From positions 248,001-312,000 of the forward strand of contig NZ_JABMCJ010000093.1 in NCBI RefSeq assembly GCF_013359755.1: a DNA stretch of 64,000 nt. Reading direction: 5' to 3'. The position numbers were made by a program, and so were the translations under genes. The DNA comes from Tardiphaga robiniae (GTDB taxonomy: Bacteria; Pseudomonadota; Alphaproteobacteria; Rhizobiales; Xanthobacteraceae). The notes under the pieces are model-generated. The model saw only the letters and a program-made list of their open reading frames with translations, was not told the DNA's origin and ran no database searches. Below are positions 25,323 through 56,495 of the stretch, piece after piece. Position 1 is the stretch's first letter; each line of letters begins with the position of its first letter.

Positions 25323-25327
25323 TTAAG
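25323..25327. repeat. Left target-site duplication (TTAAG)
   Basis: TTAAG directly precedes the TGT terminus of the element and is repeated directly after the ACA terminus at 56491-56495. A 5-bp duplication is the hallmark of Tn7/Tn5053-type insertion. Confidence 0.92.
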
Positions 25328-25463
25328 TGTGGATTCCCACATAAACCCGACTTGAAATCAAAGATTCTCCAGTCTTTTCAGTACGGCTTCCCCACATAAA
25401 ATTTACCCGAAACACCCCATAAGACCGACGCAATAGGGGGGCCTCCCCACAATAAACCGACGC
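25328..25463. repeat. Left end of the element: four transposase-binding-type repeats
   Basis: Four related repeats in direct orientation: 25336-25351 (CCCACATAAACCCGAC), 25391-25410 (CCCACATAAA, 4 bases, ACCCGA), 25415-25431 (CCCCATAAGACCGACGC) and 25445-25463 (CCCCACAATAAACCGACGC). Multiple TnsB-binding repeats at each end are a defining property of Tn7-like elements. The first repeat overlaps the terminus. From 25464 to 25568 I see no further feature. Confidence 0.88.
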
Positions 25464-25568
25464 ATTTTTTTTGAGCGGCCGCGAGATCACCACGGCAATC
25501 GGCGGCGCGACCAGTCTGGACTGAGTTGACGCGCGTATTTTAACAAGCAACTAACGTATGCGTGTATA

Positions 25569-26579
25569 ATGCAGATGCCGAACATGATTCGGCGGCTGGA
25601 GCACCCGTATTTGGCAAGTTCATTCAACGATCAGCAGCTTCGACACCAGGCGCTGAAGCTCAAAGACCCTTACGACCAACCAAATCTCACATTTGAAATG
25701 CCGGACCGTTCGGCGCTTCTCGACATCATCAATATTTATACTTTTGATAAGTACCCCGCCAAAAAGGCGTTCTGTGTCCTATGCCAGTCGCATCGGCATC
25801 GAAAAGGGTTCACTGCAGTTCTTACGTCCGGACAACGTATGATGTGCGGTAGCAAATGCGGTGCCGACCACTTTGGGACGAGCTGGGCGGATGCAGAGAA
25901 ACGCATCGAGGAACGTGCCGACAGGCAATTTGAGCTGAAGCGGGTTGACCGACTAGCGGCCTGTGAACGTTCGTTCGATATTGTCTCTTCATGGATCAAG
26001 GCGTTCGAACAGATCGAAAATAGGCGCCGGGCTTTCCATCGCCTCGGCGAGATGGCATCGCGGGTTTACGAAGCGGCGCTCCACAAGGGCGGGGCCTTGA
26101 CGGTCTTCAAGGCGTTGCCACAGCACGCGGACGCCGAAGATCGCAGGCGATCCTTGGGCGGTACGGAAGTTACTGTCGGCCGTATCGTAGGAAGCCGATA
26201 TCTGACCGCAAGCGAATACACCCCACAATTATCGCAGGTGTCGGCGGCGATCGCGGAAATGCTGTCGTCCGCACGCGGAAGCGAACGGCTGTCCACGGAC
26301 TTAATGCGGAAACGCCGACGGGCCTTCGAGCGATCTATCGAGGGTTTGGATGAGGCGGCGGAAGTCCTCGAGGCTGCGCGATCATTCTGGACTGTCGAGA
26401 ACTTCTCGGAAATGGTTCGCTACATTAACGAGCACGGCGCGACCAGCGCGCGATACGAACTTTCGGAGGGTGTCGTTCGAACGGTCAGTGGCTCTGCCGG
26501 AATGAAAGTCTCCATGCCTGTGCCAAACCTGAACCTTGAGATGTTGCAGGCGGTTCGGGACTACAGGCGGGCGGACTGA
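25569..26579 (+). CDS. Hypothetical protein with Cys-rich zinc-finger-like segment
   Basis: 336 residues, not recognised. Residues about 70-105 carry paired cysteines (FCVLCQSH, then MMCGSKCGADHFG) that could bind zinc. The rest is mainly helical and charged (EKRIEERADRQFELKRVDR; MRKRRRAFERSIEGLDEAAEVLEAARSFW), suggesting coiled-coil or nucleic-acid contact. It is the first cargo gene at the left end and no strong ribosome site is visible. Codon use is less GC-biased than the flanking chromosome. Confidence 0.65.
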   Translation: MQMPNMIRRLEHPYLASSFNDQQLRHQALKLKDPYDQPNLTFEMPDRSALLDIINIYTFDKYPAKKAFCVLCQSHRHRKGFTAVLTSGQRMMCGSKCGADHFGTSWADAEKRIEERADRQFELKRVDRLAACERSFDIVSSWIKAFEQIENRRRAFHRLGEMASRVYEAALHKGGALTVFKALPQHADAEDRRRSLGGTEVTVGRIVGSRYLTASEYTPQLSQVSAAIAEMLSSARGSERLSTDLMRKRRRAFERSIEGLDEAAEVLEAARSFWTVENFSEMVRYINEHGATSARYELSEGVVRTVSGSAGMKVSMPVPNLNLEMLQAVRDYRRAD

Positions 26580-26713
26580 TTGCCATAGCTGATGGGTCGC
26601 CATTGAGGCGGCCCATCAGAAGTTGCCTAAAAAAATGGATGCTTAATCGGCACGCGTTCTTCGGGATCCGGTTGTGGGCGAGATAAGTTGCGTTTGGGCT
26701 GAGGGGGCAGGGT

Positions 26714-28712: not shown

Positions 28713-29684
28713 CTAAGCCTCGCCGCAAGACGGCCTCGGCCCCGGAGCAAAGTTTCGAAGATCGCTTTCACTGATTCTGAATTTCGAAGCCGCGTTCGCG
28801 AACACGGCGTCGGCGAAGTACGCTGCCATATGCGGCGGATGCAAATCCCTGAACCATTCCGCAAGCCAACCGTAAGCATTGTTGATCGTAGGCGGCCTTC
28901 GTCGTTCGGAAGCCAGGTATCCGGCATAGACTTTATCGAGGACAGCACGCAATCGGCCTTCCTTTATGGCCTGGAACCCTCTCGAACGTAAATCGGCCGC
29001 CGACACATCAAGATCGCCGATATCCATCCATGTGTTTCGATAACCTCGCGCATCGAGAATTCCGATCCTTTCGATGACATGGAGCGCAGCCTTTAAGGGC
29101 ATCGTGTCCAACGATGGAGCCGAGACCGCATTTCCAACGCCGAGGCGCCCCAAGGCCCATTGATCGACCTCGGCCAAGTCCGGGGGTGGAGCAGAGGTGA
29201 GCATGCGGGTAACATCGCCGTCCGTGCAATTTCGGCACTTGGCAATGTGGACATCGGTCCACGAGAGCTTCCTGCCGCACGAGCAATCCGAGATCAGCGT
29301 AGTTCCGTGCGCCGGGCATGTGGAAATAAAAGCAAGATCGAACCAGAAGCGATGGTAAGCGGACTTCTCCACGCACCGCGGACATAAGCGGCGGGATGAC
29401 TGCTTTACGGCGTGATTTCCGTTGATCCTTTCGCCACGGATCATCAAGGAACCGCCCACATCGCGAAATGTGGAATCCAGAATGGGGAGGGTATCGCTCC
29501 GGACGGCGGCCGCGATTTTTTCTACACCGATTCCGTACTGTAATTCGCGCGCTGTGACCCCGAGCAAGTTCGAGATATGGTGCATCGATTGGAACCCATT
29601 GCGTTCCGCCAATCGAATGAGGATTCCGTGCGCGGGTTCATCCTGCTCCGGGACGACCCAAAGCGGCATTGCCGTCCGATTCAT
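28713..29684 (-). CDS. tniQ: TniQ-family protein, second copy (target selection)
   Basis: About 323 residues from ATG 29684. The N-terminal TniQ motif is PLWVVPEQDEPAHGILIRLAE. The zinc-binding core has CPRC, then CPAHG, CSCG and CRNC, as in TniQ/TnsD proteins that link the target to TnsC. It is clearly paralogous to the preceding gene. Its start overlaps the 3' end of that gene by 47 bp, indicating translational coupling. ATG 29735 and ATG 29669 are alternative starts. Confidence 0.88.
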   Translation of the reverse strand: MNRTAMPLWVVPEQDEPAHGILIRLAERNGFQSMHHISNLLGVTARELQYGIGVEKIAAAVRSDTLPILDSTFRDVGGSLMIRGERINGNHAVKQSSRRLCPRCVEKSAYHRFWFDLAFISTCPAHGTTLISDCSCGRKLSWTDVHIAKCRNCTDGDVTRMLTSAPPPDLAEVDQWALGRLGVGNAVSAPSLDTMPLKAALHVIERIGILDARGYRNTWMDIGDLDVSAADLRSRGFQAIKEGRLRAVLDKVYAGYLASERRRPPTINNAYGWLAEWFRDLHPPHMAAYFADAVFANAASKFRISESDLRNFAPGPRPSCGEA

Positions 29685-30714
29685 TGACTGAACCTTTGCG
29701 TCGATAGGCAAGCGACTTGCGTGCTGCGTTTGCAATTACAATGTCGGCGAACCGACTGTGGGGTACATCTGAAGCCGTTCTATGGTGCCATTGCATGAAC
29801 CATGTCCCAAACCAACTAAATGCTCCGTGGAACGAGGCACCACGGAAATAAGGCCTGTACCTCGCGTAAACTCGGTCCAACAGTTGGTCCAATACGCCGT
29901 CTCGCAGAATTCCAAATCCAGCCGCACGCGCTTCATTGATCGAGACGTCCGCTGTGGAAATACTCTCCTTCATCGACTTGCGCGTTTCATTTCCACCAAC
30001 TTGAAGCGCCCCGACTGCGGTGATGGCGCTAAACGCGTGAGTCAACGGAAGCTCGTCTAGAACCGGGATGCTTGCAGATTTCGTCACTCCGAGCCTACCC
30101 AGTATCCAACGGTCCACTTCAAGAACATCTTCGTTCGCGTTAGCATTTCGTATGTTTTGAACATCGCCGTTCTCGCAGTGGCGACATTTTGAGACCCGAA
30201 CATCACTCCACGACAGGGGATGACCGCACGAACAGTCGCTTATCAACTCGATATTGTGCTTGGGGCACGTCGAGATGAAGGTGACGTCAAACCAAAAACG
30301 TTGATGCGGGGACTCTGCGATGCAGTGCGGGCAAAGCCGGCGACGCGTGCCTTCAATATCTCGACGCCCTTGGAGGCGCTGCCCTCGGACACTGCACCAA
30401 CCGTCATCTCCGGCGACAAACGTGGAATCCAGTATATCGATCGGGCTGCATCGGATTAGTTTGGCCAACTTCGGAACTTCGCGGCCGACACGCAGGTCGC
30501 TGGTTCTCAAGCCCGTGTGATTCAGGATGCCGACTGGATTCTCAATGCCATTGCGTTCTGCGAGGCGGAGGAGAATGCCGTGTGCCGGTTCATCTTTCTC
30601 AGGCGAGACCCATAGCGGCAACGACGGTCCCTCCACGACCACGGGCCTCGGACGTCGTCGTCGCAGGATTGGAGAATAGTTCCCAAACATTCGGATTCGA
30701 TACTCGATCATCAT
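29638..30714 (-). CDS. tniQ: TniQ-family protein, first copy (target selection)
   Basis: 358 residues. The N-terminal motif PLWVSPEKDEPAHGILLRLAE and zinc cluster (CPHC, CPKHN, CSCG, CRHC) match the neighbouring copy closely. In Tn7-like elements two TniQ-domain proteins often divide the work: one for a fixed attachment site (TnsD-like) and one for another target mode. Which copy does which cannot be told here; neither is long enough to carry the large C-terminal DNA-binding region of Tn7 TnsD. Confidence 0.88.
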   Translation of the reverse strand: MMIEYRIRMFGNYSPILRRRRPRPVVVEGPSLPLWVSPEKDEPAHGILLRLAERNGIENPVGILNHTGLRTSDLRVGREVPKLAKLIRCSPIDILDSTFVAGDDGWCSVRGQRLQGRRDIEGTRRRLCPHCIAESPHQRFWFDVTFISTCPKHNIELISDCSCGHPLSWSDVRVSKCRHCENGDVQNIRNANANEDVLEVDRWILGRLGVTKSASIPVLDELPLTHAFSAITAVGALQVGGNETRKSMKESISTADVSINEARAAGFGILRDGVLDQLLDRVYARYRPYFRGASFHGAFSWFGTWFMQWHHRTASDVPHSRFADIVIANAARKSLAYRRKGSVNESDGNAALGRPGAG

Positions 30715-30784: not shown

Positions 30785-31879
30785 CTACGACGCTCTCTTC
30801 TTGAGGCCGTTTTTTCGAGCTTTTGCACGCCGAATGGTATGGCCTTCGAGAGCCTTCAGTTCGCTTTCCTCCCTCCGTTCCTTCTTCATCCGCAGAAAGC
30901 CTTCCGCATTTGGATCCTCTTTTGGAAAGAACGGATTTTCGCCGTCCGGAACATCATGCTTCCTGCGGTAGGCCTCCGCCAAGGCCAGCATCGTGATGGT
31001 TTCCATCTCTTCCTCGATCGCGACCTTAACCGCCTCGGTCACGTACTTGGTGATGCCACCAAGGTAGCCGTCAGACGCCAAAAAGAGGCGAAGCGCCGTC
31101 GACTTATGATGCAAGTTGGGATTGACGTCGAACGGAAGGTCGTCAGACAGCGACTTCAGGAATCTTCGAAGATCTGCCTTCTCGTCGAGGTCAAGAGGGA
31201 ACGGCGGCATAGTCCATTGCTCGCTTTTCACGGTTTCAAGCTGTCCGTTTGCCAGAAGGAAGTCGAGCGCATGCGGCAGGCCCATGCACATGACTTGCAC
31301 GCGTGTTTCTTTCATGAGCGCCTTGAAAACGTCTGCCGCCTCGTAAGGATCTCCTTTCAAGGTGCTCTCTGCGATGTGCTGACAGTCATCGAAAATGATT
31401 AGGCGAATGCTCTGTTCTTTGATTTGGTGTCTCGCCATCGCCTGCATTTCGCCGAGCGTTGGTCTGCCGCTAGGCTTGATGCCGATTGCGTTGAGCGTGT
31501 CAGCGAAAAGCTGCTTGTAAGTGGTCTTCTTTCCGACCTGTAACTTTACCACTGGGCGCACGAGGCCATGCCCAGGCTTCTCGAAGGTTACGCTCATGGT
31601 CCGGTCGTACTCGGCCGCATCAGTGAGCTTCAAGTTTTGCCCATCCATGATCGCGCCGCGATAGTCCTCCCGAACCTCTTCGAGGAAGTCGTTGGCGACG
31701 GTGGTCTTTCCCACGCCGGTTTCGCCGACGAGAAACGAACAGCTCGCCTGCTGCGTCTCGTGCCAGGAGCTATAACAGCGACGCAGGATACCAGTTGCAC
31801 GTTTCATGGTCGGGGTCACGGCTACGAAACTTCCGACGTGCTTGCGGCGTTCTTCGGCGGTACGGTTCATCCAGGTCAT
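30785..31879 (-). CDS. tnsC: TnsC/TniB-like AAA+ transposition ATPase
   Basis: 364 residues. Walker A GETGVGKT at 52-59 and Walker B LIIFDD at about 161-165 followed by CQHIAE, which is the TniB/TnsC arrangement. The N-terminal region (RRKHVGSFVAVTP) matches TniB. It bridges TniQ-bound target and the transposase. ATG 31879 is preceded by GAGGAG; it begins 14 bp after the transposase stop, in the same operon. Confidence 0.92.
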   Translation of the reverse strand: MTWMNRTAEERRKHVGSFVAVTPTMKRATGILRRCYSSWHETQQASCSFLVGETGVGKTTVANDFLEEVREDYRGAIMDGQNLKLTDAAEYDRTMSVTFEKPGHGLVRPVVKLQVGKKTTYKQLFADTLNAIGIKPSGRPTLGEMQAMARHQIKEQSIRLIIFDDCQHIAESTLKGDPYEAADVFKALMKETRVQVMCMGLPHALDFLLANGQLETVKSEQWTMPPFPLDLDEKADLRRFLKSLSDDLPFDVNPNLHHKSTALRLFLASDGYLGGITKYVTEAVKVAIEEEMETITMLALAEAYRRKHDVPDGENPFFPKEDPNAEGFLRMKKERREESELKALEGHTIRRAKARKNGLKKRAS

Positions 31880-31893
31880 AAAAATCTCCTCGG

Positions 31894-34122
31894 TCAGTCG
31901 AGATTGCGCCGCTTGACCACAATCTGTTCCTCGATCGGTTCATCGAGCGGTGTTACGAATGGGTTAGGCAGTCTGGCGCGCTCAGAGGAAATCTTCGGCG
32001 TAGCGGCCTCGACGGCAGATGCGTCGAGAGACGGGGAGGGGATGCGCGCAGTGGACGGCGGCGGCGAGATCTCCGGGTGTTCGTCGCGATAGGGACCCCG
32101 TTCGTCCGGCGGGTTGGATTTGACGTCGTCGGCGTGCCAATCGTGTCCGGTTAGTTCCTCGGCGCTTTCCGCAGGGTCGATCCGATCCGGCCTGATGTGC
32201 TGAGAGTCGTTACGACCGTCGGTCACGAAGCGGGCGACGCGCTTGGACATCTTCAGCGTGGACTTCCTCGAGCCATTGAGGACATCGAAGATTTCCTGAT
32301 TTGTTTGAGCAGAATCCAGGAGCTTCTTCGGGTCAACGTGTTCCACGATTTCGCTGCGAGCGGCTTTACGTACGGTCTCGTACTGATGGAGGGTCATGCG
32401 ACGGACCTCGTCCCCGGTTTGCAATTCGCCGACGACCCAAGCTTTCCGAAGATCGCTTTCGGTCGGATCGAGTACATATGCAAAGGCGAGATCGAACGGG
32501 TCGATACGGACTGTAACGTCATATCCGTCATCGTTGATGCGGTTGCGTAGCGCTGAGAAATCATCGGACTGCCAGCGGAGATCTTTGTAGTAGATTCCGT
32601 TGGGACCGAGCTTCCGCTGGATCACCTTGCCCGTCATGGCGACAAGAAGATCGCTAGGCGGAGGCGGTCGTTCACCAACGTCCCGGATTTCGCGGGTCCA
32701 GCGGTCGAGCGGCGTTTCCTGCGTCATGCGGTTAATCTTCACGTGATAGACATCGACGATCCATTTGGTGATAAGCCAAGTCACTTGTTTGAGAGTGAGA
32801 CAGGCTTCCTGGCGGGAGTTGTATTTTCCCTTGGCCTTGATGTTCGACTTTGTCGTACCCGGAGCGGTATGAATGAGGTCGTCGTTGATCGTTCGGAACC
32901 AACGTTCGATGCGTCCCTTCAGATGAGGTTGGCCGCGCTTCAAATCGACCATCTGAATGTTCAGCGCCTGGGCCGCCGCGGTCATGGATTTCGAGCGAAA
33001 CTCCGGGCCATTGTCGACGAACAGGCGCGAGCACGCCCCGTAGCAGAGCCATCTGTTCTTGAAGTTTGGCTCGAGGCCGATCGCATGGCTAACCTCTTCC
33101 ATGAAGGCTTCCTTGGGCTGAACGGCATGTCTGAGGGCTTCCATCACACTAACCCAGGACGGAGGCGTGAAGCTGAGGGAGAACCCCAGAATCATGCGCG
33201 TCCGTCGGTCGCTGATCGTCGTTAGATAGGGACGACTGAGGTTGCGCCCATTGTCATCGACCACTTCGAGATCCAAAGGTGTGTGATCGACTTCGGCTTC
33301 CTCGAGAGGATAGTTGCATGTCGGCCCCGCGCGAACGGCCTTCAGCAGGAAGTCTGCCGCATGCTTGCCATGCCGTGCCTTCGTGAGGTCGTAAAGCTCC
33401 ATATTAGCGATCATTCTCGTCACGAGATGTTTGCCGATGCAGCGTTCCGGATGCATTGCAAGGTTCGGCAGAGCGCGCCCCTCACGTTCGGCACGAAGAA
33501 CGATGCGAGCGTTGACCCGACGAAGCGCGACCTCCAAGGTTGTATGTGGGCTCGCCTTATAGGTCTCGAGAATACCGTCGGACACTTCCTGCATGAGCCA
33601 GTCTTCGTACCGTCCGGTGCGATTACCCTTCTTTCTGTGGTTCGCAATCAGCGCACGAATGTCACGACCGGTGACGAGCCAGCGCCGATACCACTCGCGC
33701 GCCAGTCGAAAATTGACGGTCTTGGGACGGTCATCCTCCGACAGCTTAGTGACAAGATCCACGATGACCGGTTCGACATATTTCTTCTTGTCGCGCCGCA
33801 TGATCGGAAGCGCGTCGATCGCTGCTACGAATGGATAGCGTCGCTGCGCCGACTTCCGTTCGAGGTCGGAAAAGGCACCCCAGTCAACTTGCGTGTTTGC
33901 GACGACATGGGGATCCAATGCACGGTAGGCGGCATCCGTGGTAATTCGGCCCGACCGCACCATGTGCGCAATGGCGTGATCGGAAAACGGCTTCTCGGTT
34001 CCGGACTGCTTATCCGTGAACACGCGGCCCTGGTCGCTTGGCGGTCCGACGATGAACGCCCGGGCGTCAATTCGGATGACACCATTGGTGCGGAGCTGAA
34101 CTGGCATGTGGTCGAGATTCAT
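31894..34122 (-). CDS. tnsB: TnsB/TniA-like DDE transposase
   Basis: 742 residues. The RNase H-like catalytic core has D279 (EVDHTPLD), D370 (LFVDNGPEF) and E406 (KGRIERWF), all present. An N-terminal DNA-binding part precedes it and a Mu-C-type beta domain (GKVIQRKLGPNGIYYKDLRW) follows. The acidic Pro-rich tail may contact TnsC. It joins the element's 3' ends to target DNA. It starts 14 bp after the TnsA-like gene. The enzyme looks intact. Confidence 0.95.
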   Translation of the reverse strand: MNLDHMPVQLRTNGVIRIDARAFIVGPPSDQGRVFTDKQSGTEKPFSDHAIAHMVRSGRITTDAAYRALDPHVVANTQVDWGAFSDLERKSAQRRYPFVAAIDALPIMRRDKKKYVEPVIVDLVTKLSEDDRPKTVNFRLAREWYRRWLVTGRDIRALIANHRKKGNRTGRYEDWLMQEVSDGILETYKASPHTTLEVALRRVNARIVLRAEREGRALPNLAMHPERCIGKHLVTRMIANMELYDLTKARHGKHAADFLLKAVRAGPTCNYPLEEAEVDHTPLDLEVVDDNGRNLSRPYLTTISDRRTRMILGFSLSFTPPSWVSVMEALRHAVQPKEAFMEEVSHAIGLEPNFKNRWLCYGACSRLFVDNGPEFRSKSMTAAAQALNIQMVDLKRGQPHLKGRIERWFRTINDDLIHTAPGTTKSNIKAKGKYNSRQEACLTLKQVTWLITKWIVDVYHVKINRMTQETPLDRWTREIRDVGERPPPPSDLLVAMTGKVIQRKLGPNGIYYKDLRWQSDDFSALRNRINDDGYDVTVRIDPFDLAFAYVLDPTESDLRKAWVVGELQTGDEVRRMTLHQYETVRKAARSEIVEHVDPKKLLDSAQTNQEIFDVLNGSRKSTLKMSKRVARFVTDGRNDSQHIRPDRIDPAESAEELTGHDWHADDVKSNPPDERGPYRDEHPEISPPPSTARIPSPSLDASAVEAATPKISSERARLPNPFVTPLDEPIEEQIVVKRRNLD

Positions 34123-35177: not shown

Positions 35178-35510
35178 TCATCTCAACGCCTGCAAAGCGT
35201 CGAGCGTCTTTGTCGTTGCCGGTTTCCCGGCACGTGTCAGCGGTGCGAAACGGTCTCCGCGGGTTCGGGGTTGAACGCTGACATTGACGGCTTTGAGGAT
35301 TGAGTCGAAGTTCGCGAAAGAGGAAACGAGTTGACGAGCGTTTGCATCGAGTTTCTCCTTCTTGTTGCGACCCGACAGTTCGGTCGTGATTGACCTTTCC
35401 CCACCGGCATGGTGGAGACGAAGTCGCGCCGAAGGATTGGGTCCTTTCAAACGCAACAACGAGATCCACATAGCAATGGTGAATTCATAGATCCAGATCT
35501 GATGGAACAT
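35178..35510 (-). CDS. Hypothetical protein (110 aa) coupled to the FtsH-like protease
   Basis: 110 residues from ATG 35510, whose first base is the last base of the preceding gene's TGA stop (TGATG), a classic coupling arrangement. The N-terminus is moderately hydrophobic (IWIYEFTIAMWISLLRL) and the C-terminus basic (VQPRTRGDRFAPLTRAGK). No family recognised. Its position suggests a partner of the protease or a transposition accessory factor. Confidence 0.55.
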   Translation of the reverse strand: MFHQIWIYEFTIAMWISLLRLKGPNPSARLRLHHAGGERSITTELSGRNKKEKLDANARQLVSSFANFDSILKAVNVSVQPRTRGDRFAPLTRAGKPATTKTLDALQALR

Positions 35511-45779: not shown

Positions 45780-45806
45780 TGCCGCAAGCAAGCCGGTGGG
45801 AATGCC

Positions 45807-46790: not shown

Positions 46791-46828
46791 CACCAGACGT
46801 ACGTTTTCTTTGAAAGATGGAGACTTGA

Positions 46829-48514
46829 ATGGCCAGCGACGTCCGAACGGAACAGCCCAAAGAAGCCTTATCGCGAGACGCGGAAAACCATGCGCTCAAC
46901 CGCAGAAACCTGTTGCTGGGCAGTTCAGCGATTGTCGCGGCTGTAACGCTTACATCTGCCGCACTGGCTCAGGCGCAGAAAGCGGCCCCAATCGCCAGTT
47001 CGGCACGTCGACCGAACATCCTGCTGATCCTGGCAGATGATATCGGGTGGTTCGATGTGGGGGCCTATAACCGCGGAATGATGGGCGGGGCGACCCCCAA
47101 CATCGATCGCATCGCCTCAGAAGGCGCGCTGCATACCGATCATTACGGTCAGGCGAGTTGCACGGCCGGACGCGCGGCATTCATCACCGGGCAGATTCCC
47201 ATGCGCACCGGCATGACCACTGTTGGCATGCCGGGCGCCAAGCAGGGACTACAGGCTGAAGATCCTACCATCGCCGATCTGCTCAAACCCTTGGGCTACA
47301 TGACGTGCCAGACCGGCAAGAACCACCTTGGCGACCGCAACGAACATCTGCCGACTGTGCATGGCTTCGATGAGTTTTATGGCAACCTCTATCATCTCAA
47401 CGCAGAGGAGGAGCCTGAGCAGGACGACTATCCGAAGGGAAACGAGAAATTCAAGGAGACGTTCGGTCCCCGCGGCGTTCTCGAATGCAAGGCCACCGAC
47501 CGGGACGATCCGACCGAGGACCGGCGCTTCGGCCGGGTCGGCAAGCAGACCATCAAGGATACCGGACCTCTGACACGAGAGCGCATGACGACTGTCGAAG
47601 ATGACCTGCTTGGGCGTTCGACGGACTTCATGGATCGCGCCACCAAGGCAGGGAAGCCGTTTTTTCTCTGGCACAATACGACGCGCATGCATGTCTGGAC
47701 ACGTCTCTCCAAGCGATGGGACGGCAAGACCGGGCTTGGGCTGTACTCGGACGGCATGCAGGAGCTTGATTACGTTGTTGGCGGTCTGCTGAAAAAACTG
47801 GATGATCTCGGCATCGCCGACAACACGCTGGTGATTTTCACGACCGACAATGGCGCAGAGAAGTTCACCTGGCCGGACGGCGGCACATCACCGTTCCGGG
47901 GTGAAAAGGGACTCGGTTGGGAAGGTGGCTTTAGAGTCCCGTTCCTGATCCGATGGCCCGGCAAGATCCAGCCCGGCCGTGTCTTCAACGGAATCACGTC
48001 GCATGAAGACGTGCTTCCGACGGTCCTCGCCGCAGCAGGTGAGCCTGACGTAGTCGCGAAGTGCAAAGCGGGCTACGCGGCTGGGGAAAAGACGTACAAG
48101 GTGCATCTCGATGGCTTCAACCAACTGCCCTACCTGACGGGGGAAGCCAAGGAGTCGGCGCGTGACCAGTTCGTCTACTACGGAGAGACCAGTCTCTACG
48201 CCATCCGTTACAAGAACTGGAAGGTCCACTTCGAGACAAAGGACGACTGGTTCGCAGGACACTCGGCCGCACCGACGGTGCCGCAGCCGGTCAATCTCCG
48301 CTCGGACCCGTTCGAGCAACACATGCAGGCGCCGAACTATCCGAATTATGCGGTCAACAAGCTCTGGACCGTTCTGCCGATTGCGGCCCTGGTCGAACAG
48401 CACCTTGCAACGTTCAAGGACTTCCCGCAGCGGCAATCCCCCATCGACGTCGATGTCAATGCGATGATGAAGCGCGTGATGGCGGCGGCCGCAAAAGTCA
48501 GAGGCGGAAACTAG
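46829..48514 (+). CDS. Arylsulfatase, Tat-exported
   Basis: 561 residues. The N-terminus carries a twin-arginine signal (LNRRNLLLG at 23-31, then a hydrophobic stretch ending AALAQA). The mature enzyme begins RPNILLILADDIGW with the metal-binding D70/D71. The modification site is C111 in CTAGRAAFITG (C-T-A-G-R), the substrate of FGE. Further metal and active-site regions are visible (TTDNGAEKF). It cleaves sulfate esters; substrate unknown. Confidence 0.94.
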   Translation: MASDVRTEQPKEALSRDAENHALNRRNLLLGSSAIVAAVTLTSAALAQAQKAAPIASSARRPNILLILADDIGWFDVGAYNRGMMGGATPNIDRIASEGALHTDHYGQASCTAGRAAFITGQIPMRTGMTTVGMPGAKQGLQAEDPTIADLLKPLGYMTCQTGKNHLGDRNEHLPTVHGFDEFYGNLYHLNAEEEPEQDDYPKGNEKFKETFGPRGVLECKATDRDDPTEDRRFGRVGKQTIKDTGPLTRERMTTVEDDLLGRSTDFMDRATKAGKPFFLWHNTTRMHVWTRLSKRWDGKTGLGLYSDGMQELDYVVGGLLKKLDDLGIADNTLVIFTTDNGAEKFTWPDGGTSPFRGEKGLGWEGGFRVPFLIRWPGKIQPGRVFNGITSHEDVLPTVLAAAGEPDVVAKCKAGYAAGEKTYKVHLDGFNQLPYLTGEAKESARDQFVYYGETSLYAIRYKNWKVHFETKDDWFAGHSAAPTVPQPVNLRSDPFEQHMQAPNYPNYAVNKLWTVLPIAALVEQHLATFKDFPQRQSPIDVDVNAMMKRVMAAAAKVRGGN

Positions 48515-48585
48515 CCTGAGTGCTCTGTTGAGCAACGAAGAGATGGCGGCGAATGAACGCCGCCATTAAACTTGGGAGGCAATCC

Positions 48586-48930
48586 ATGAACAAGAAATTC
48601 TCGTGCAAGGCACTTCTCCTTGGTGCAATGGTCGGGATGTCCAGCCCGGCCTATGCGCAGGTCCCGCTGACCAGCTATCAAGACAGTAAGGGCTTTATCG
48701 ATGTCCAGGCGCTGACATGTGCCCAGCTCATCAACACCTATCAGGAAGACGCGGACACGCTCGCCGCATGGTATAGCGGCTGGTACAACGGCCTTGCCAA
48801 GAAGCATTTCGCCCATATCACGCGGGCGAAATCCGGCGAACACCATCTCATCCTCTACTGTCGTGCTAATCCGCAGTTGAAGATCATCGAGGCCATCGAC
48901 GTTCTGCTCAAGAACGAAGCCTCAAAATAA
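48586..48930 (+). CDS. HdeA/HdeB-like periplasmic protein
   Basis: 114 residues from ATG 48586 (GGGAGG upstream). A signal peptide ends at PAYAQ. The mature part has LTCAQLINTYQEDADTLAAWYSGWYNGLAKKH and a second Cys in LILYCRANPQ, the two-Cys layout of HdeA-type acid-stress chaperones. It may aid folding of exported proteins of this operon. Confidence 0.75.
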   Translation: MNKKFSCKALLLGAMVGMSSPAYAQVPLTSYQDSKGFIDVQALTCAQLINTYQEDADTLAAWYSGWYNGLAKKHFAHITRAKSGEHHLILYCRANPQLKIIEAIDVLLKNEASK

Positions 48931-48957
48931 TCCGCGTATAACGTTTGAAGGTCAGCG

Positions 48958-49941
48958 ATGCGTCGTGTCATTCACCTCATTTCATCTGTCGTATTCTGGA
49001 TCTGCGCATCGTCAGCCTATGCCCAGTCAGATGCGTTGCCATCCTGGAACGACGGTGGAACAAAACAATCCATCGTTGATTTTGTGGCGCGCGTGACAGC
49101 GCAAGGCAGCGCTGATTTCGTGCCGGTGGAGCAGCGAATTGCTGTCTTCGATAATGACGGGACGCTGTGGTGCGAACAGCCGATCTACTTTCAATTCGCG
49201 TTTGCATTCGATCGCATCAAGGCCATGGCGGCGCAGCACCCTGAATGGAAGACGACCCAACCCTACAAAGCGATCCTGGACGGCGATATGAAGGCATTCG
49301 CGGCGTCAGGCGAAAAAGGCCTGCTGCAAATCGTAACTGCCGCCCACAGCGGCATGACGACCGACGAGTTCTCGAAAGCGGTCATCGAATGGACGACAAC
49401 CGCCCGGCATCCGCGCTTTAACCGCCCTTATACCCAGCTCGTCTATCAGCCGATGCTCGAACTGCTGGCCTATCTGCGCGCCAACGGCTTCAAGACCTTC
49501 ATCGTGTCGGGTGGCGGCATCGAATTTATGCGGCCATGGGTGGAAAAGATTTACGGCATCCCGCCGGAGCAAGTGGTCGGCTCGTCTGGCACTGTCGCGC
49601 TCCAAATGGATGCCGGCGGCAAGCCATCACTTCTCAAGACACCCAAAATTGAGTTCGTCGATGACGGGCCGGGCAAGCCCGTAGGCATCAACCGCTTCAT
49701 CGGCCGCCGTCCGATCTTCGCGTTCGGCAATTCGGATGGTGATCTGCAGATGCTGCAATGGACAGCGGCAGGCGGAGGCGCGCGATTCATGGGATTGGTG
49801 CGCCATACCGATGCCGAGCGCGAGTACGCCTACGACCGGCAATCGAAGATCGGAAAGCTGGACAAGGCATTGGACGAGGCCACTGCGAAAGGGTGGAAGG
49901 TCGTTGATATGAAGAAGGACTGGAAGACGATTTTTCCTTGA
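48958..49941 (+). CDS. Exported HAD-superfamily hydrolase
   Basis: 327 residues. Signal peptide (LISSVVFWICASSAYAQ), then the HAD motif I FDNDGTLW with D65 and D67. Motif II is IVSGGG and motif IV FGNSDGDLQML. Such exported HAD proteins are probably phosphatases or sulfate/phosphonate-processing enzymes in the periplasm. It sits in the sulfatase operon. Confidence 0.85.
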   Translation: MRRVIHLISSVVFWICASSAYAQSDALPSWNDGGTKQSIVDFVARVTAQGSADFVPVEQRIAVFDNDGTLWCEQPIYFQFAFAFDRIKAMAAQHPEWKTTQPYKAILDGDMKAFAASGEKGLLQIVTAAHSGMTTDEFSKAVIEWTTTARHPRFNRPYTQLVYQPMLELLAYLRANGFKTFIVSGGGIEFMRPWVEKIYGIPPEQVVGSSGTVALQMDAGGKPSLLKTPKIEFVDDGPGKPVGINRFIGRRPIFAFGNSDGDLQMLQWTAAGGGARFMGLVRHTDAEREYAYDRQSKIGKLDKALDEATAKGWKVVDMKKDWKTIFP

Positions 49942-49990
49942 GATGATCGGATTACGGAAGTTCCAGAGCAGAAGCTCATGACATGAGATA

Positions 49991-50239
49991 GTGACCTTGA
50001 GTGGCATCGATATCTTCGCCTGGATCGTTCTGATCATCATGGTCGCCAGCGCGATTGGGGTAGTCTGCATCGCTGGCTGGCTGCCGGGGCACATCGCCGC
50101 CACACGCGGCCATCCATGGGCGGAGGCCGTGACGGTGGCCGGCTGGATCACGTTGATCTGCGGATTTGCGCTGTGGCCGATTGTATTGGTTTGGGCCTAT
50201 GTAGACGTGCCCGCGCCGCCCAGAACGAAGCAATCCTGA
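49991..50239 (+). CDS. DUF3302 inner-membrane protein (YiaW-like)
   Basis: 82 residues, two hydrophobic spans (IFAWIVLIIMVASAIGVVCIAGW; AGWITLICGFALWPIVLVWAYV) separated by RGHPWAEAVTV, matching DUF3302. It is coupled to the downstream HlyD-type gene by a TGATG overlap, the same pairing as YiaW/YiaV. GTG 49991 is the start; TTG 49997 is possible. Confidence 0.78.
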   Translation: MTLSGIDIFAWIVLIIMVASAIGVVCIAGWLPGHIAATRGHPWAEAVTVAGWITLICGFALWPIVLVWAYVDVPAPPRTKQS

Positions 50240-51180
50240 TGGGCGCCGCGATCATCAACACTTATTTGGTGCTGCTCTTTCTACTGGTGCATTTCAGGTT
50301 CGTCCGCTTCAACCTGTTTTGGAAACTGTCTCCCTTCATTGTGGCGTTGCTGGTCCTGTTCGGCTTGCTGGTGCCGATGGGGTGGGGGGCGCCGCAAGGT
50401 CCTGCCGTCGTCATCCGCAATTCCGTTGCCATCGTTCCTGATGTCGCGGGTGAAGTGATCGAAGTGCCCGTTGCGGCGAACGTTACGCTGAAGGCAGGAG
50501 ACGTGCTGTTCCGGATAGACCCAACGCCCTACGCCGCCCAAGTGAAAGCGATCCAGGCGCAATCGACGCTGGCCGACCAGCGCCTGGCCCAGATGACACA
50601 ACTGTTCGATCGTAACGCCGGTCGCGGCTTCGACGTCGAGCAGCGGCAAGCCGAAGCCGATCAGGCGAAAGCTCAGCTCGAAGGCGCGCGTTGGAATCTG
50701 GAGAAGACGACGGTGCGAGCGCCGGCAGACGGCTATGTCACCAACCTGGCACTGCGTAAAGGGGCACGCGTCGCCAATTTGCCGCTCGCGCCAGTGATGG
50801 CCTTCATCGATACGTCGCAAACCATCATCGGCGTCGAGATTGCGCAGAACGATGCACGCTATGTCAAACCCGGTCAGTCCGTCGAGGTCACGTTCAAGTT
50901 CATGCCGGGCAGGGTCTATGACGGCAAAGTCGAGAGCGTGCTTCAGGCCATCGCCACCGGGCAGGTGCAGACATCGGGCGCCGCTGTGACGCCGAAGACG
51001 ATTCAGACCACGCCTTTCGTGGTGCGCGTCGTGCTTGACGATGCCGCGTTCGCTCATTCACTGCCGGCTGGAAGCACGGGCGACGCCGCGATCTTCACCG
51101 ACAGACTTCAGGTCACGCATGTCGTCCGGCGAGTCCTGCTGCGGCAAACCGCGATTACGAACTACGTCAATCCGTTCTAG
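50239..51180 (+). CDS. HlyD-family membrane fusion/efflux protein (YiaV-like)
   Basis: 313 residues from ATG 50239, overlapping the DUF3302 stop. Two N-terminal hydrophobic spans are followed by the biotinyl-lipoyl halves (VPDVAGEVIEVPVAANVTLKAGDVLFRIDP; TTVRAPADGYVTNLALRKGARV), a coiled-coil hairpin (AQSTLADQRLAQM) and a beta-barrel (VKPGQSVEVTFKFMPG). Likely an export or envelope-maintenance component; no outer-membrane partner is in the operon. Confidence 0.87.
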   Translation: MGAAIINTYLVLLFLLVHFRFVRFNLFWKLSPFIVALLVLFGLLVPMGWGAPQGPAVVIRNSVAIVPDVAGEVIEVPVAANVTLKAGDVLFRIDPTPYAAQVKAIQAQSTLADQRLAQMTQLFDRNAGRGFDVEQRQAEADQAKAQLEGARWNLEKTTVRAPADGYVTNLALRKGARVANLPLAPVMAFIDTSQTIIGVEIAQNDARYVKPGQSVEVTFKFMPGRVYDGKVESVLQAIATGQVQTSGAAVTPKTIQTTPFVVRVVLDDAAFAHSLPAGSTGDAAIFTDRLQVTHVVRRVLLRQTAITNYVNPF

Positions 51181-51218
51181 CCAAACACGTATCAACGCGC
51201 GCAGGTCGGGAGGCCACG

Positions 51219-53150
51219 ATGTCAGCAGCCAATCCGACCCGCTTTCGTGTCGGATTTCGCACGTCTATCATCGTGCTGTTCGTCGGAATTGTGTTGTTCG
51301 TCGGTCTGGCGCTGGTCTATCTCGCCTTCAGCCGGGTCACATTGATCACGCGGTCCGCGGCGAGCTCATTCATGGACAGTGTCGCCGAACTTGCCGCCGA
51401 CCGTGTCAATGGCCAGCTTAAGACGGTACGGGACAGTCTTGATATCCTCCAGGGGCTGACCTCGGTCCAGTCCGCCGCCATCCAGGACAACCCGCGATTA
51501 CATATCGTGTTGGCGTCGATGCTGCGCAACAACAAACAGCTCTATAATCTCTACATGGGTTACGACAACGGGACCTTCCTGGAGATGGACTTCATCGATC
51601 GCGGAGGTGAGGGGGCAAGAAGCCGACTGGCTGCGCCGCACGATGCCACCTTCCGGCTCGTCATCATCGCAAAGAGCGGCAATGATGGCCTGACATCCAC
51701 CATCACTTTTCTGTCCGACGCGTTGGTCCCCGTCAGTCAGCGTCCGGGTCCGACCGATTACGATCCGCGCAGTCGTCCGTGGTTTAGGGACGCCTTCGGT
51801 CCGAATCCCAGCCTGCTGACGGAGCCGTATTTGTTCTTCGCGACCGGAGAGATCGGCTACACGGTGCGGATGCCGATCGCCGAAGGCTTCAAAGGCGTGG
51901 TCGCTGGCGATATCCTGCTGAGCGAAGCCGAGACCATGCTGCGCAAACAGCAGCTCGGCAAGTCCGGACTGGCGTTCCTGTTCGACGATGCCGGCCGCGT
52001 GCTGGTCCATCCCGACATGTCTCAATTTATTTCCCATGCGGGAGGCGGACGATTGAGCGAGCTGCCGCGCCTTGGTGATATTGATAAGGCAGGCGTCTCG
52101 TCCGCCATCGATGCCTGGAAACGAACCGGTGTAGCGCAACAGTTCTTTCACGACAGCGATGGGCGAGTATATGCGGCGGCGTTCCGTCCCATCGAGATGT
52201 CCGGTTCCGCAAACCTGCGGTTGGGGCTGTTTGCTCCCATCGACGAGTTCTACGCCAAAATCGAGTCGGAGCGACGCGCCCTGTTTCTTGCTGCCGTCGG
52301 TCTGGTGCTGGCGGTGCTTCCGATCGCGTTTGGGCTGGGCTCTATGCTGTCGCGATCATTGGGGGCGCTCGCACGCGAGACAGATGCCATCCAACGATTT
52401 CAGTTCACCGAAACAGCGAAATGGCATTCGCCCATTCGCGAAATTGACGAACTGAGCCGTTCGGTCTTCACGATGCGTACGCTTGTCCAGACATTCTCCC
52501 ACTTTGTGCCCAAACTCCTCGTCCAGCAGCTCGTCGAAACTGGAAGCGCCATGAAGTTGGGAGGAGCTCGGCGAGAGATAACCGTTCTATTCACCGACGT
52601 GGAGAATTTCACGGGAATGACCGAAGACAGAGACCCGACCGATGTCATGACCTTCACTTCGCGCTACTTCGCAGCAATGTCGGAGGCCATCATGGCGCAC
52701 AATGGCATTGTCGATAAATTCATCGGCGATGCCGTGATGGGCATCTGGAATGCGCCTGTGCAGGATGACAACCATGTCCAGGACGCGTGCGCAGCGGTGC
52801 TCGCCTGCATCGAAGCGAATGCGAGGCTGAACGCAGAATTTGAACGCGAGGGATGGCCAGCCTACCGCACTCGCTTTGGCTTACATGTGGGGGAGGCCGT
52901 TGTCGGAAATATCGGATCGCCCGACCGAATGAGTTATACGGCGCTCGGCGCCACCGTGAATCTTGCTGCTCGTCTTGAGGCTCTCAACAAGAACTATGGG
53001 ACATCTGTTCTCGTCAGCAGTGAAATTAAACAGCGAACGGAGGCGTTCTACCTCTTCCGCCATGTGGACGTGGTGAAGCCCAAAGGCTTCGCAGCAGAGG
53101 TAAGTATCTACGAATTATTGGACTGCCGTCGGTCAAGGGATAACGATTGA
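51219..53150 (+). CDS. Membrane adenylate/guanylate cyclase with Cache-type sensor
   Basis: 643 residues. TM1 (SIIVLFVGIVLFVGLALVYLAF) and TM2 near 352-375 bracket a large extracytoplasmic Cache-like sensor domain (YDPRSRPWFRDAF is typical). A HAMP-like linker leads to a class III cyclase domain with the metal-binding Asp in LFTDVENFT (about 459) and FIGDAVMG (about 504), and the ALGATVNLAARLE motif. It would make cAMP (or cGMP) in response to a periplasmic ligand. Probably the last gene of the operon. Confidence 0.9.
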   Translation: MSAANPTRFRVGFRTSIIVLFVGIVLFVGLALVYLAFSRVTLITRSAASSFMDSVAELAADRVNGQLKTVRDSLDILQGLTSVQSAAIQDNPRLHIVLASMLRNNKQLYNLYMGYDNGTFLEMDFIDRGGEGARSRLAAPHDATFRLVIIAKSGNDGLTSTITFLSDALVPVSQRPGPTDYDPRSRPWFRDAFGPNPSLLTEPYLFFATGEIGYTVRMPIAEGFKGVVAGDILLSEAETMLRKQQLGKSGLAFLFDDAGRVLVHPDMSQFISHAGGGRLSELPRLGDIDKAGVSSAIDAWKRTGVAQQFFHDSDGRVYAAAFRPIEMSGSANLRLGLFAPIDEFYAKIESERRALFLAAVGLVLAVLPIAFGLGSMLSRSLGALARETDAIQRFQFTETAKWHSPIREIDELSRSVFTMRTLVQTFSHFVPKLLVQQLVETGSAMKLGGARREITVLFTDVENFTGMTEDRDPTDVMTFTSRYFAAMSEAIMAHNGIVDKFIGDAVMGIWNAPVQDDNHVQDACAAVLACIEANARLNAEFEREGWPAYRTRFGLHVGEAVVGNIGSPDRMSYTALGATVNLAARLEALNKNYGTSVLVSSEIKQRTEAFYLFRHVDVVKPKGFAAEVSIYELLDCRRSRDND

Positions 53151-53269: not shown

Positions 53270-53785
53270 CTAGAATTTCAGCCCCGTCGGCTCGACGGCG
53301 ACGATCTCGGAATCCAGACTATTTCTCCAGTCATACGAGCCGATCGGATTTTCCGATTCTTCCGGATCCCAGCGTCCCTCGGGTTCATGTTCCGGTGGAA
53401 GCGAATCCGTTTGACCCGCCTCTCGCAGGAGACGATGCCGACAACGGTCGCGCCAATGCATCGCTTCTTTGTTCTCCGTTGGAGACAAAAGATCGAGAAT
53501 GCGCTGCGGGCAGAAATCTGACACTGGACCTTCGTCTTCAAGAATGCCGCTGAGCTCGTACATGTTCTCGCCCGATGCAGGCTTGGGCATGACCAGAAGA
53601 ACGCCACCATCGACGACGTCGCCGGTCTGCAACGCAATGGCTACGCTGTGTTCGCCACGGTCGTTGTAGTAAATTTGGAAATCGAGGACGTCGTCGCCGA
53701 ACTCTTCGTCCAGATGGGCCTCGATGGCCTCGCCGATGTCCCCAGATATCTCGACGGTTTCGCGCATGTCGAACGCATTGCCCAT
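53270..53785 (-). CDS. Hypothetical acidic protein (171 aa)
   Basis: 171 residues from ATG 53785, which is supported by a strong GGGAGGAA. Acidic first half (AIEAHLDEEFGDDVLDFQIYYND) and an acidic, Pro-rich end (PPEHEPEGRWDPEESENPIG). No family recognised. It is divergent from the CoiA-like gene, with 179 bp between the two starts. Confidence 0.6.
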   Translation of the reverse strand: MGNAFDMRETVEISGDIGEAIEAHLDEEFGDDVLDFQIYYNDRGEHSVAIALQTGDVVDGGVLLVMPKPASGENMYELSGILEDEGPVSDFCPQRILDLLSPTENKEAMHWRDRCRHRLLREAGQTDSLPPEHEPEGRWDPEESENPIGSYDWRNSLDSEIVAVEPTGLKF

Positions 53786-53964
53786 ATGAATTCCTCCCTC
53801 TGCCTCCCGCGAAAGATAGCGAGGTCTGGCGCAAGCAACGAAACCGCTCTGACGCGTGAGGAACTCGCTCATGCGAGCTTTGGATTGGAGTGTCGAATCG
53901 TCCTAGATTCCACCGACCACGTAGGCTGGACAGCATCTGAAATGCGAGTGGAAACGCCCCTGAA

Positions 53965-55866
53965 ATGACGCGCCACGCGCCCAGAAAGTTCTCAGACGGC
54001 TCCGCTGAATTGGTTTATGCGATCGACGCCGCCGGTAAGATTCGACACATTTCCGAAGTCGAACGGGGATACGCCTGCGACTGCACATGTCCGGCCTGCG
54101 GAGCGATGCTGAACGCCAGGAAGGGCCCCGACAATGTCCACCATTTCGGGCATCGCTCGTTTTTCTCGTGCGCCAACGGCCCTGAAACGGCGCTGCACAA
54201 ACTGGCTAAGGAGATTATCTCGACGGAGCGAAGACTGCTCGTTCCAGAAGTGAAGGCTATATTTGGAGAGCAGTCCTCGCTGATACACCAGAGAAAGCTC
54301 GTCTGCTTTGACGAAGTCGTCGAAGAGGCCCGGCATCTGAGCCAATTGGTGCCGGATATCCATGCCAAACTGGACGAGCACCATCTCTTCGTCGAGATCT
54401 ACGTGACGCATGCATGCGATGAACTGAAACGCGAGAATCTCCGAGCCAATGGCGTCGCCGCTGTCGAGATCGACCTGTCTCGGCTTCGAAGAGACTCGGA
54501 GAGGTCCGTGGTTCGGGATGCGGTCATCGAAAAGGCTGACCGACAGTGGCTATTTCATCCGAGGATAGACGCCGCGGTTGATGCAATGCGAATAGCACAC
54601 AGGGCAAAAGTGAATGCACAGCGAAAGCAATTCGACGATGAGGTTTCAGTCCGTCTCCGCAGGTATGATGCCGGTCTGACGGAGTTGGCAATTCGAAAGG
54701 TCGCCTCACCCGACAACACCAAGGAATTCTTCAGGATTGGTCTCGGCAATCACATCGGTTGCTCGCTTGGCGGATCGGGCGGCTTCACGGTGACCGAGAG
54801 GGAGTGGCAGTACCGCGTTCTCCGTGTATTCATTCCGAAAGATGACGTGCGGCGCTCTTTCCGCCATCAGGCGATCTTCGAGTGGATCAAGGACAAAAAG
54901 CTTCTGCGCGCTGGTTTCCATTATGTGAGACCTGAGCTGGAGGAAGCGATGCGAGAGCGTAACTCTCAGTTCCTGAGCCCGTACCGAGCCATTGAGGCCT
55001 ATCTTGATGAGCTCGTTGGTCGCGGTGTGCTTCAAAAAATCAAGTCATATTCGCTTTCGGAGGCCGTGTTCACGAAGCTCATGGACTTGCGCGAAAGCAT
55101 TGATCGGAAACACCAGCGTAGGACGAGCCTGGTCGAGCGCATTGAAAAACTCCTAGAACGCCTGCCGGAGAGCGAACTGGATGATTTCTCTTTGAACGAC
55201 TGGATGTGGCAAGTTCAAGAGGACGGCATGTCGTTCGGCGAGGCCATCGAGGCCGACGACGAGAGCTTCGACGCGATGCTCGTACCGCTCCGCAAGATCG
55301 AAGCGATGATGTTCCGGAAGGGCGCTGCGGTCGCGTATTCATTGGGGCTTCCTATCGGTGCCGAGCAGGCACGCCAGATGGAAGCAAGAAAACGGGAAGC
55401 GGACGACAGGGAGGCAGCAAAGCAAGCGGAGGCGGTCCGTCGGGAAGAGGCTTTACAGAAGGCCGCTGCCGACCGTGGCGATGCTCTCGGGCTTACCGCA
55501 GCAAAGCACGGAGACGAATGGGTCTCCTGGATAACCATCGGACAGCCCGAACTCGACGGAATGACGCCGTTGGCCGTTGCTATTTTGGGACAGGAGGGCG
55601 CGGATAGGGCGCGCCGTCTGCTTCAAAGCCTCATCGAGAGGCGCGACGAAGAATGCGCCAGAAACGCCGAGATTGAGAGATGGAAATCCGAACTCGAGCG
55701 GGAGGTCTTCGGGCTTCTTAAAGACAGGACCCAGCCATTCTTGGATTCGCCATATGCTCTCGGACCAAGTGGAAAGAAAGTGAAGCCGCGGGACTACTGT
55801 GTGTCGAAGGAAACGTTTGAGGAATGCCTCAAATTGGCAACGAGCATAGCAAAAAAGAAACGATAG
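53965..55866 (+). CDS. CoiA-like PD-(D/E)XK nuclease with zinc ribbon
   Basis: 633 residues, longer than competence CoiA. N-terminal zinc site: CDCTCPACG (C38, C40, C42, C45) and HHFGH (59-63). A nuclease-type core follows: PD (D131 in LVPDIHAK), E144 (LFVEIYVT) and K155 (DELKREN), the PD-(D/E)XK order. The C-terminal half is helical with a coiled-coil (EADDREAAKQAEAVRREEALQKAAADRG). Possibly DNA processing or defence cargo; function unproven. Confidence 0.72.
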   Translation: MTRHAPRKFSDGSAELVYAIDAAGKIRHISEVERGYACDCTCPACGAMLNARKGPDNVHHFGHRSFFSCANGPETALHKLAKEIISTERRLLVPEVKAIFGEQSSLIHQRKLVCFDEVVEEARHLSQLVPDIHAKLDEHHLFVEIYVTHACDELKRENLRANGVAAVEIDLSRLRRDSERSVVRDAVIEKADRQWLFHPRIDAAVDAMRIAHRAKVNAQRKQFDDEVSVRLRRYDAGLTELAIRKVASPDNTKEFFRIGLGNHIGCSLGGSGGFTVTEREWQYRVLRVFIPKDDVRRSFRHQAIFEWIKDKKLLRAGFHYVRPELEEAMRERNSQFLSPYRAIEAYLDELVGRGVLQKIKSYSLSEAVFTKLMDLRESIDRKHQRRTSLVERIEKLLERLPESELDDFSLNDWMWQVQEDGMSFGEAIEADDESFDAMLVPLRKIEAMMFRKGAAVAYSLGLPIGAEQARQMEARKREADDREAAKQAEAVRREEALQKAAADRGDALGLTAAKHGDEWVSWITIGQPELDGMTPLAVAILGQEGADRARRLLQSLIERRDEECARNAEIERWKSELEREVFGLLKDRTQPFLDSPYALGPSGKKVKPRDYCVSKETFEECLKLATSIAKKKR

Positions 55867-56315
55867 GTTCTGACCGACCTCTGGAAGGAAATTTACTTCG
55901 CCGGCGCAGCACTGGACGCCGGGGCGACCTGATCGACGACTAACCGGGCAGGGCTGCAGAAGTACACAACAGCGAAAACCGCAAGGGCATCCGCACTACC
56001 AAACTCGTGCTTGGTGCAAGGTTACAGCTCTTTTGGCGTCTTACGGTGCCATAAACGGCTTTTGAGGAGGCTTAAGCTACCATGCCGCCGCGAAGCCGGT
56101 TCACCACCGCGCCGCCGTTTGCCGTCGAAGATGCAAGCCAAACCCGTCGACTACGCTGGTCAAGGATTAGACGACCGACGATCCACGAATCCGGAAACGC
56201 TCGCCACGAGGAGCCAGCGGCCCTCTAAGGCGAACACCCATGGGCGATCAGCATAATTCACTTGTGATCGCACAGCAGAATAAACGTGTACCTGCACGAA
56301 TTTGCCCGCCAAAAC
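55867..56315. other. Interval without recognised gene before the right end
   Basis: 449 bp after the CoiA-like stop. A short C-terminal-looking frame (LWKEIYFAGAALDAGAT, then TGA) occurs near 55877-55933 and may be the tail of a lost gene. I see nothing else. Confidence 0.35.
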
Positions 56316-56490
56316 GCGTCCGCCTTTTGTGGGGTGACGCGGCTGTCTTATGTGGTCGATTGAATCCCACAACCAGCTTCAGAGGATCGTCAGCCAGGGC
56401 CGACGGAGCCAGCGAGCAAACGCGTCGATCATATGTGGGGTAGCGCGACGATCATTTGCGATGAAATGCAGACTTATGTGGGGATCAACA
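56316..56490. repeat. Right end of the element: about four inverted transposase-binding-type repeats
   Basis: Repeats in the opposite orientation to those at the left end lie at 56316-56334 (ends TTTTGTGGGG), 56345-56355 (GTCTTATGTGG), 56424-56440 (GTCGATCATATGTGGGG) and 56471-56483 (GACTTATGTGGGG, overlapping the terminus). The terminal ACA is at 56488-56490. Confidence 0.85.
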
Positions 56491-56495
56491 TTAAG
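56491..56495. repeat. Right target-site duplication (TTAAG)
   Basis: Identical to the five bases directly before the left terminus (25323-25327), confirming the right boundary. Confidence 0.92.

Follow-up and report, generated by a model that had tools for sequence, protein, structure and literature searches.

The window analysed here, i.e. a stretch of 64,000 nucleotides from Tardiphaga robiniae (positions 248,001 to 312,000 of contig NZ_JABMCJ010000093.1 in assembly GCF_013359755.1), carries a Tn7-like transposon of 31,163 bp (25328-56490) whose right end lies beside dif, the XerC/XerD site at the replication terminus. Comparisons with related genomes point to a small Tn7-like family that homes to dif, in which a pair of short TniQ proteins would recognise dif either directly or via XerC/XerD; from the sequence evidence, the probability of this reading is put at about 0.88. 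Homing to dif is well supported, while the recogniser is one that we infer. It is also well supported by these comparisons that the insertion site is defined by dif, located 39 bp beyond the right end of the element, and not by the serine-hydrolase gene on the left flank.

Boundaries and empty site of the element

A first-pass annotation, made from the letters of the window alone, had described a complete Tn7-like transposon with defined ends and a TTAAG target duplication, and this description was borne out by the termini, the end repeats and an empty site in a relative. As annotated, TTAAG occurs on both sides (25323-25327 and 56491-56495) and the element termini are TGT/ACA. The left terminal repeat TGTGGATTCCCACATAA (25328-25344, plus strand), which includes the outermost TnsB-site-like repeat, and the right terminal repeat TGTTGATCCCCACATAA in inward reading (56474-56490, minus strand) are identical at 15 of 17 bases. 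A search for TGT...ACA pairs that demanded matching 5-bp flanks returned this pair as the best around the tns genes, the runner-up among all pairs with a common 5-bp flank reaching 10/17.

Arrays of inward TnsB-site-like repeats are present at both ends (left, 25335-25454, plus strand, with starts at 25335, 25390, 25413 and 25445; right, 56325-56483, minus strand, with starts at 56325, 56348, 56431 and 56474). Searches with the motifs CCCCACATAA or CACCCCATAA, allowing at most one mismatch, placed three of the five plus-strand copies in the window inside the left 170 bp and four of the five minus-strand copies inside the right 170 bp. The observed clusters exceed those of shuffled sequence, the largest plus-strand cluster in 100 Markov shuffles being a single repeat. 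The four related repeats per end that had been annotated were recovered when up to two mismatches were allowed. The check that had been proposed, i.e. a search for the empty site in relatives, succeeded in the same-genus genome G026, where the 3' end of the hydrolase gene is joined to the downstream flank via one TTAAG. One TnsB match was detected in the host genome.

A family of elements at a fixed distance from dif

The 28-bp sequence at 56530-56557 (plus strand), outside the element and separated from its right end by 39 bp, is identical to the dif site of Bradyrhizobium japonicum USDA 110 as given in Table 1 of PMC2731167, and is the probable attachment anchor. Allowing up to three mismatches, a dif match was obtained in all 18 chosen genomes, once in 16 of them and with a second, weaker copy in two (G188 and G088); the reversed dif sequence, used as a control, gave no matches in the same 18 genomes. 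GC skew and the polarity of GGGNAGGG were sampled in two chromosomes (G207 and G180) with 20 tiles of 20 kb each. Both switched between the tiles flanking dif, a change that fits the replication terminus. The arm of dif facing the element is taken to be the XerC arm, the arms being assigned after E. coli dif.

Homology to TnsB was detected at E<=1e-60 in nine of 391 genomes of the bacterial family (the window's own genome included), and the elements of G207 and G199 were first found in this way and not through the pattern of a right end plus dif. This pattern was present in six of the 391 genomes and two of 47 genera, with no occurrence of the reversed control. The positive genomes were G000, G088 and G180 from the window's genus and G067, G199 and G207 from a second genus (3 of 16 genomes). 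A search for the terminal repeats in other genomes had also been proposed; related ends were indeed found elsewhere, but they lie beside dif, are limited to these six genomes of the family and are not widespread.

All six elements lie on the same side of dif in the same orientation, with gaps of 39 bp (window), 35 bp (G207), 36 bp (G199), 38 bp (G180), 37 bp (G067) and 36 bp (G088), a spread of 5 bp over two genera. Insertion is site-specific and outside the conserved attachment sequence, with dif at 35-39 bp and left intact throughout the family. The elements measure 31,163 bp in the window, 31,040 bp in G207, 33,481 bp in G199, 7,584 bp in G180 and 3,575 bp in G067, that of G088 being split by a contig break. 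Exact 5-bp duplications flank five of the six (TTAAG, ACATC, CCGAG, GCAAT and ACCGA, in the order just given), with terminal matches of 15, 14, 14, 15 and 14 out of 17 as compared to 10, 12, 11, 9 and 9 for the runner-up pairs. As the search for the left end required a flank match, it is the terminal match that provides independent support. For G088, a 6-bp AGAGAA occurs on both sides of an element found on two contigs, both ends being assumed to belong to one element. The element-to-dif spacers share identity between sites at only 8-14 of 35 positions; since the spacers are unlike each other, dif is what the sites have in common, i.e. the anchor. The G067 and G180 elements may be non-autonomous. 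At E<=1e-120, TnsB was found only in the window's own genome among 397 genomes of the order. No match was present in viral contigs and the tns region had no match in plasmid DNA, although plasmids do carry distant relatives of TnsB and TniQ.

Several observations weigh against homing to dif. The right-end-plus-dif pattern selects for dif, which leaves the elements of the window, G207 and G199 as the unselected ones; those of G180, G067 and G088 came to light through inspection of dif and are not independent of that choice. The tns genes are known in only three of the six elements, with no tns match within the G180 and G067 elements and a contig break in G088. Class-wide, the pattern was found in the window's own genome only (1/352), although this search would miss other end sequences. 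Skew was noisy in the G207 tiles distant from dif. G072 encodes two TniQs (316 and 220 amino acids (aa)), and its assembly, which is fragmented, shows no element end beside dif; two other members that have lost the TnsA catalytic residues (G089 and G106; see below) are not at dif.

Other insertions near dif were also seen. The G207 scaffold also shows an older Tn7-like element, whose right end lies directly upstream of the younger one (L107/L093, ~39.3-45.7 kb of the scaffold). The left end of the older element appears to be degenerate, and its right end would have been ~32 bp from dif until the newer element inserted; the two together suggest stacking at dif. A 12.9-kb insertion of a different element class directly abuts the XerD arm of dif at locus L089 (G066:C7) of the same genus. 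At locus L090 (G107:C7), ~1.4 kb separates the hydrolase gene from dif, with no Tn7-like end beside it; the reading frame on the dif side resembles, by eye, the last open reading frame (ORF) inside the G180 element.

Transposition genes and short TniQ proteins

The TnsB, TnsC and TniQ homologues of the window element are arranged in an operon on the minus strand, which comprises tnsB (31894-34122; a DDE transposase of 742 aa), tnsC (30785-31879; an AAA+ ATPase, TniB E=1.7e-15), tniQ1 (29638-30714; a short TniQ of 358 aa as listed and likely shorter) and tniQ2 (28713-29735; a short TniQ of 340 aa with a likely start at 29684). The TnsC-type ATPase and two TniQ proteins of the first-pass annotation scored above the Pfam cut-offs. 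Its DDE transposase fell below them (rve E=0.01), but was upheld by a near full-length alignment with the TnsB proteins of related elements. In the family scan, six elements (window, G072, G207, G199, G106 and G089) carry TnsB proteins that are at least 50% identical.

The dif elements with tns genes (window, G207 and G199) encode two full-length short TniQs of 315-358 aa as listed. One TniQ each is encoded by G089 and G106 (535 and 527 aa), which are not at dif. More distant elements have one of 514 aa (G188), two of 589 and 659 aa (G038) or one of 278 aa (Bosea), and no TniQ was seen at the G324 locus. A single long TnsD-like protein is carried by three related elements that are not at dif, and the site was located for one of them (G089; L146/L101) beside nrdJ, with the left end 13 bp after the nrdJ stop codon and a right end of poorer fit, whose flanks share only 4 bp. 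The long TniQ of G089 has a C-terminal HTH_17 match below the curated cut-off. A wider scan of genome contigs yielded nine loci with a TniQ match, where seven of the eight TniQ frames measured were of 611-799 aa and the eighth of 245 aa. TniQ2 forms a clade made up of two-TniQ elements only (support 96/97; 6 of the 11 inner branches of this tree are unresolved) and is the candidate dif selector. Between G207 and G199, synonymous divergence (dS) was 0.32-0.53 for tnsABC, and 1.18 and 2.13 (i.e. near saturation) for the tniQ genes, a level ~2-7 times higher, as if selectors had been exchanged between elements.

Among ORFs of at least 90 aa, the genes common to the window element and the G207 and G199 elements are tnsABC, both tniQ genes, a peptidase M41 gene and orf214 (G207 only). 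Other matches of the window element consisted of antisense frames of core genes and three cargo-type pairs with G199. As this common gene set holds no further selector, host XerC/XerD would be the leading candidate. XerD was above cut-off in four of four genomes; in G000, the contig carrying the element had no XerD match. A Pfam scan of 29 element ORFs revealed no site-specific recombinase domain.

Loss of the TnsA active site

A minus-strand gene at 34137-34727, overlooked in the first-pass annotation, encodes a TnsA-like protein of 196 aa. The product itself has no Pfam match; its Bosea homologue (32% identical) is recognised as TnsA by Pfam (E=8.3e-11). The choice of catalytic residues follows, on our assumption, the PD-(D/E)XK family. 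In all six proteins of the window clade (window, G072, G199, G207, G106 and G089), substitutions have removed the conserved E of the ESxLE motif as well as both the E and the K of ExK; the D is retained in four of them. All nuclease residues are kept in 12 of 12 outgroup copies (G188, Bosea, G324, L002, L003, L008, L009, L012, L013, L014, L015 and L018). Because the TnsA catalytic residues are lost, the earlier statement that the element looks intact was too strong. The ratio of non-synonymous to synonymous divergence (dN/dS) of TnsA was 0.18 for the single pair G207-G199, which indicates constraint.

Recognition of dif and alternative explanations

In the proposed mechanism, elements would always insert in one orientation, with 35-39 bp between them and the XerC arm of dif. 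TnsB would bind the end repeats, and TniQ would recruit TnsC, which would set the offset of ~50 bp from the centre of dif. The target would be recognised by the two short TniQs, most likely by TniQ2, either by reading dif directly or by docking on XerC/XerD bound at dif. TnsA would be retained as a structural subunit without nuclease activity, a state that predicts transfer of the 3' strand only, host repair then completing the cointegrates or nicked intermediates.

The odds are close to even that the XerC/XerD-dif complex is the target selector, i.e. that the recombinase pair serves as the docking site for both short TniQs, which guide the transposase with TnsA as a non-catalytic scaffold. 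Faure et al. (PMC10293859) argue that the distorted DNA would be covered by a canonical tyrosine recombinase, leaving TnsC without access, an objection that counts against this docking. The insertion point lies ~50 bp from the centre of dif and outside dif itself.

Direct contact between TniQ and dif DNA, without XerC/XerD, is possible and somewhat less likely. The objection of Faure et al. speaks in its favour, dif is the sole conserved sequence at the insertion sites, and cysteine and histidine are invariant at several columns of aligned TniQ proteins, where they are probably zinc-binding. However, both TniQs lack the C-terminal extension (with its weak helix-turn-helix match) of the long relative, and short TniQs are described as the signature of elements that rely on a different selector (PMC10293859).

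It is improbable that XerC/XerD at dif act mainly to resolve cointegrates of an element with a dead TnsA. The TnsA active site is lost, a TnsA D90A mutant in another system gives >95% cointegrate reads (PMC8188705), and an Xer site in the same orientation follows each of the six elements. Xer exchange would, however, leave the donor spacer and unmatched duplications, whereas matched duplications were found for five of the six elements and the window spacer resembles the G026 empty site. The matched duplications make Xer exchange at dif unlikely as the resolving step, and for these copies this explanation is largely refuted.

There is very little likelihood of a loose, TnsE-like bias towards the terminus, or of free insertion with selection keeping only those elements in a safe intergenic gap beside dif. 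Tn7 transposes to regions of chromosomal replication termination (PMC11406308), but the fixed spacing, i.e. a 5-bp spread with one polarity and on one side in two genera, argues against bias or selection. No TnsE domain was present among the 29 window ORFs scanned with Pfam; no search was aimed at TnsE alone.

The least credible of these alternatives has the 3' end of the serine-hydrolase gene as the attachment site, with dif merely nearby. The duplication starts 25 bp past the hydrolase stop codon, an arrangement like that of glmS, where Tn7 inserts just past the 3' end of the gene. This candidate was ruled out by differing left flanks at a constant distance from dif: hydrolase relatives in the G207, G199 and G067 stretches are only 47-49% identical, at distances of ~15, 26 and 28 kb, respectively, from the left end, and no relative was detected in the G180 stretch, with the gap to dif unchanged in each case. 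The glmS attachment of prototypic Tn7 was not observed, the site being dif. CRISPR guidance was rejected on finding no cas domain among the 29 ORFs, no Rfam hit and no repeat array.

Accessory genes and cargo

An FtsH-like AAA+ ATPase with a peptidase M41 domain (35510-37528, minus strand) and the adjoining partner gene orf214 (37569-38213, minus strand; no Pfam match) form a block, 35510-38213, that is conserved near tnsA in the lineage. An AAA+/M41 match was located near tnsA or tnsB in nine of nine relatives (family scan and a Bosea plasmid), as a 210-aa fragment in G199 and as two frames in G324. None was found near the tns genes at the 17 loci of the wider genome-contig scan, several of which are short and one of which (L005) is from the alphaproteobacterium Aureimonas. 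Besides the window, orf214 was seen in G072, G089, G106 and G207, and L005 and L010 gave weaker matches. ClpX remodels the Mu transpososome, and by analogy the transposon-encoded AAA+ protease could remodel that of this family.

A Gabija anti-phage defence pair (38569-41852) rides as cargo on the dif-located element and consists of gajA (38569-40341, plus strand) and the helicase gene gajB (40338-41852, plus strand). The adjacent cargo block (42836-53150) encodes an AraC regulator, a Phenol_MetA_deg family protein, an FGE-sulfatase factor, a sulfatase, an HdeA-like protein, a HAD phosphatase, an HlyD-like protein and a Cache-cyclase. Further towards dif are orf200 (53270-53872, minus strand), relatives of which lie close to the end facing dif in the G088 and G180 elements, and a cargo ORF of 633 aa (53965-55866, plus strand) with a weak CoiA_N match below cut-off. 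Near the left end, an ORF of 336 aa (25569-26579, plus strand) is cargo or accessory and had no Pfam or PADLOC match.

Relationship to known systems and implications

The window element resembles Tn7 and Tn7-like elements with TnsD/TniQ attachment sites in its TnsA-like, TnsB, TnsC and TniQ proteins, TGT/ACA ends, 5-bp duplication, insertion at an offset that leaves the attachment site intact, and defence cargo. Attachment sites of Tn7-like elements include glmS, yhiN, comM, tRNA genes and parE (Table 1 of PMC11406308), whereas the window element lies at dif, has two short TniQs without the long extension, has lost the TnsA catalytic residues and includes M41 and orf214 in its core. Tn5053/Tn402 elements, termed 'res site hunters' (Minakhina 1999, via PMC11406308), are alike in TniQ-dependent insertion at the site of a site-specific recombinase. 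These elements lack TnsA, carry a separate resolvase and target plasmid res sites, in contrast to the TnsA homologue, the chromosomal XerCD site and the absence of a site-specific recombinase among the 29 scanned ORFs of the window element. Tn6022 with TnsF shares a short TniQ and an Xer-like fold in target choice (PMC10293859), but TnsF is encoded by the element and targets comM, and no such further gene is common to the window, G207 and G199 elements. CRISPR-associated transposons differ in their Cas effector and CRISPR array, neither of which was found in the window element. IMEX elements also home to dif but integrate through XerCD, recombining into dif itself, whereas the window family carries its own transposase and inserts at a distance of 35-39 bp, producing a 5-bp duplication.

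No report of Tn7-like elements at dif was recognised among the titles and abstracts searched, most subscription papers being beyond reach. The whole word 'dif' is absent from the main text of Faure 2023 (PMC10293859), and both 'dif' and 'Xer' are absent from Benler 2021. It is strongly supported, as far as these literature searches reach, that dif is an unreported address for a Tn7-like transposon.

Faure et al. (PMC10293859) describe many loci whose TniQ is too small to select a target and for which no partner could be identified, and suggest that such loci rely on selectors supplied in trans; the window family may be a case of this prediction. If true, docking on XerC/XerD would be the tyrosine-recombinase counterpart of res hunting by Tn5053. 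It would also be a present-day example of a recombinase acting in trans, as Faure et al. envisaged both in the early evolution of Tn7 and for short-TniQ elements that lack a known partner. For these partnerless elements, the family would offer a defined DNA site and two specific host proteins with which to test the question, and it would also test whether TnsA acts without nuclease activity. dif is present in most bacterial chromosomes. Because it is widespread and must stay intact, dif would offer a near-universal safe site, and dif-homing transposons would link Tn7 targeting with chromosome dimer resolution.

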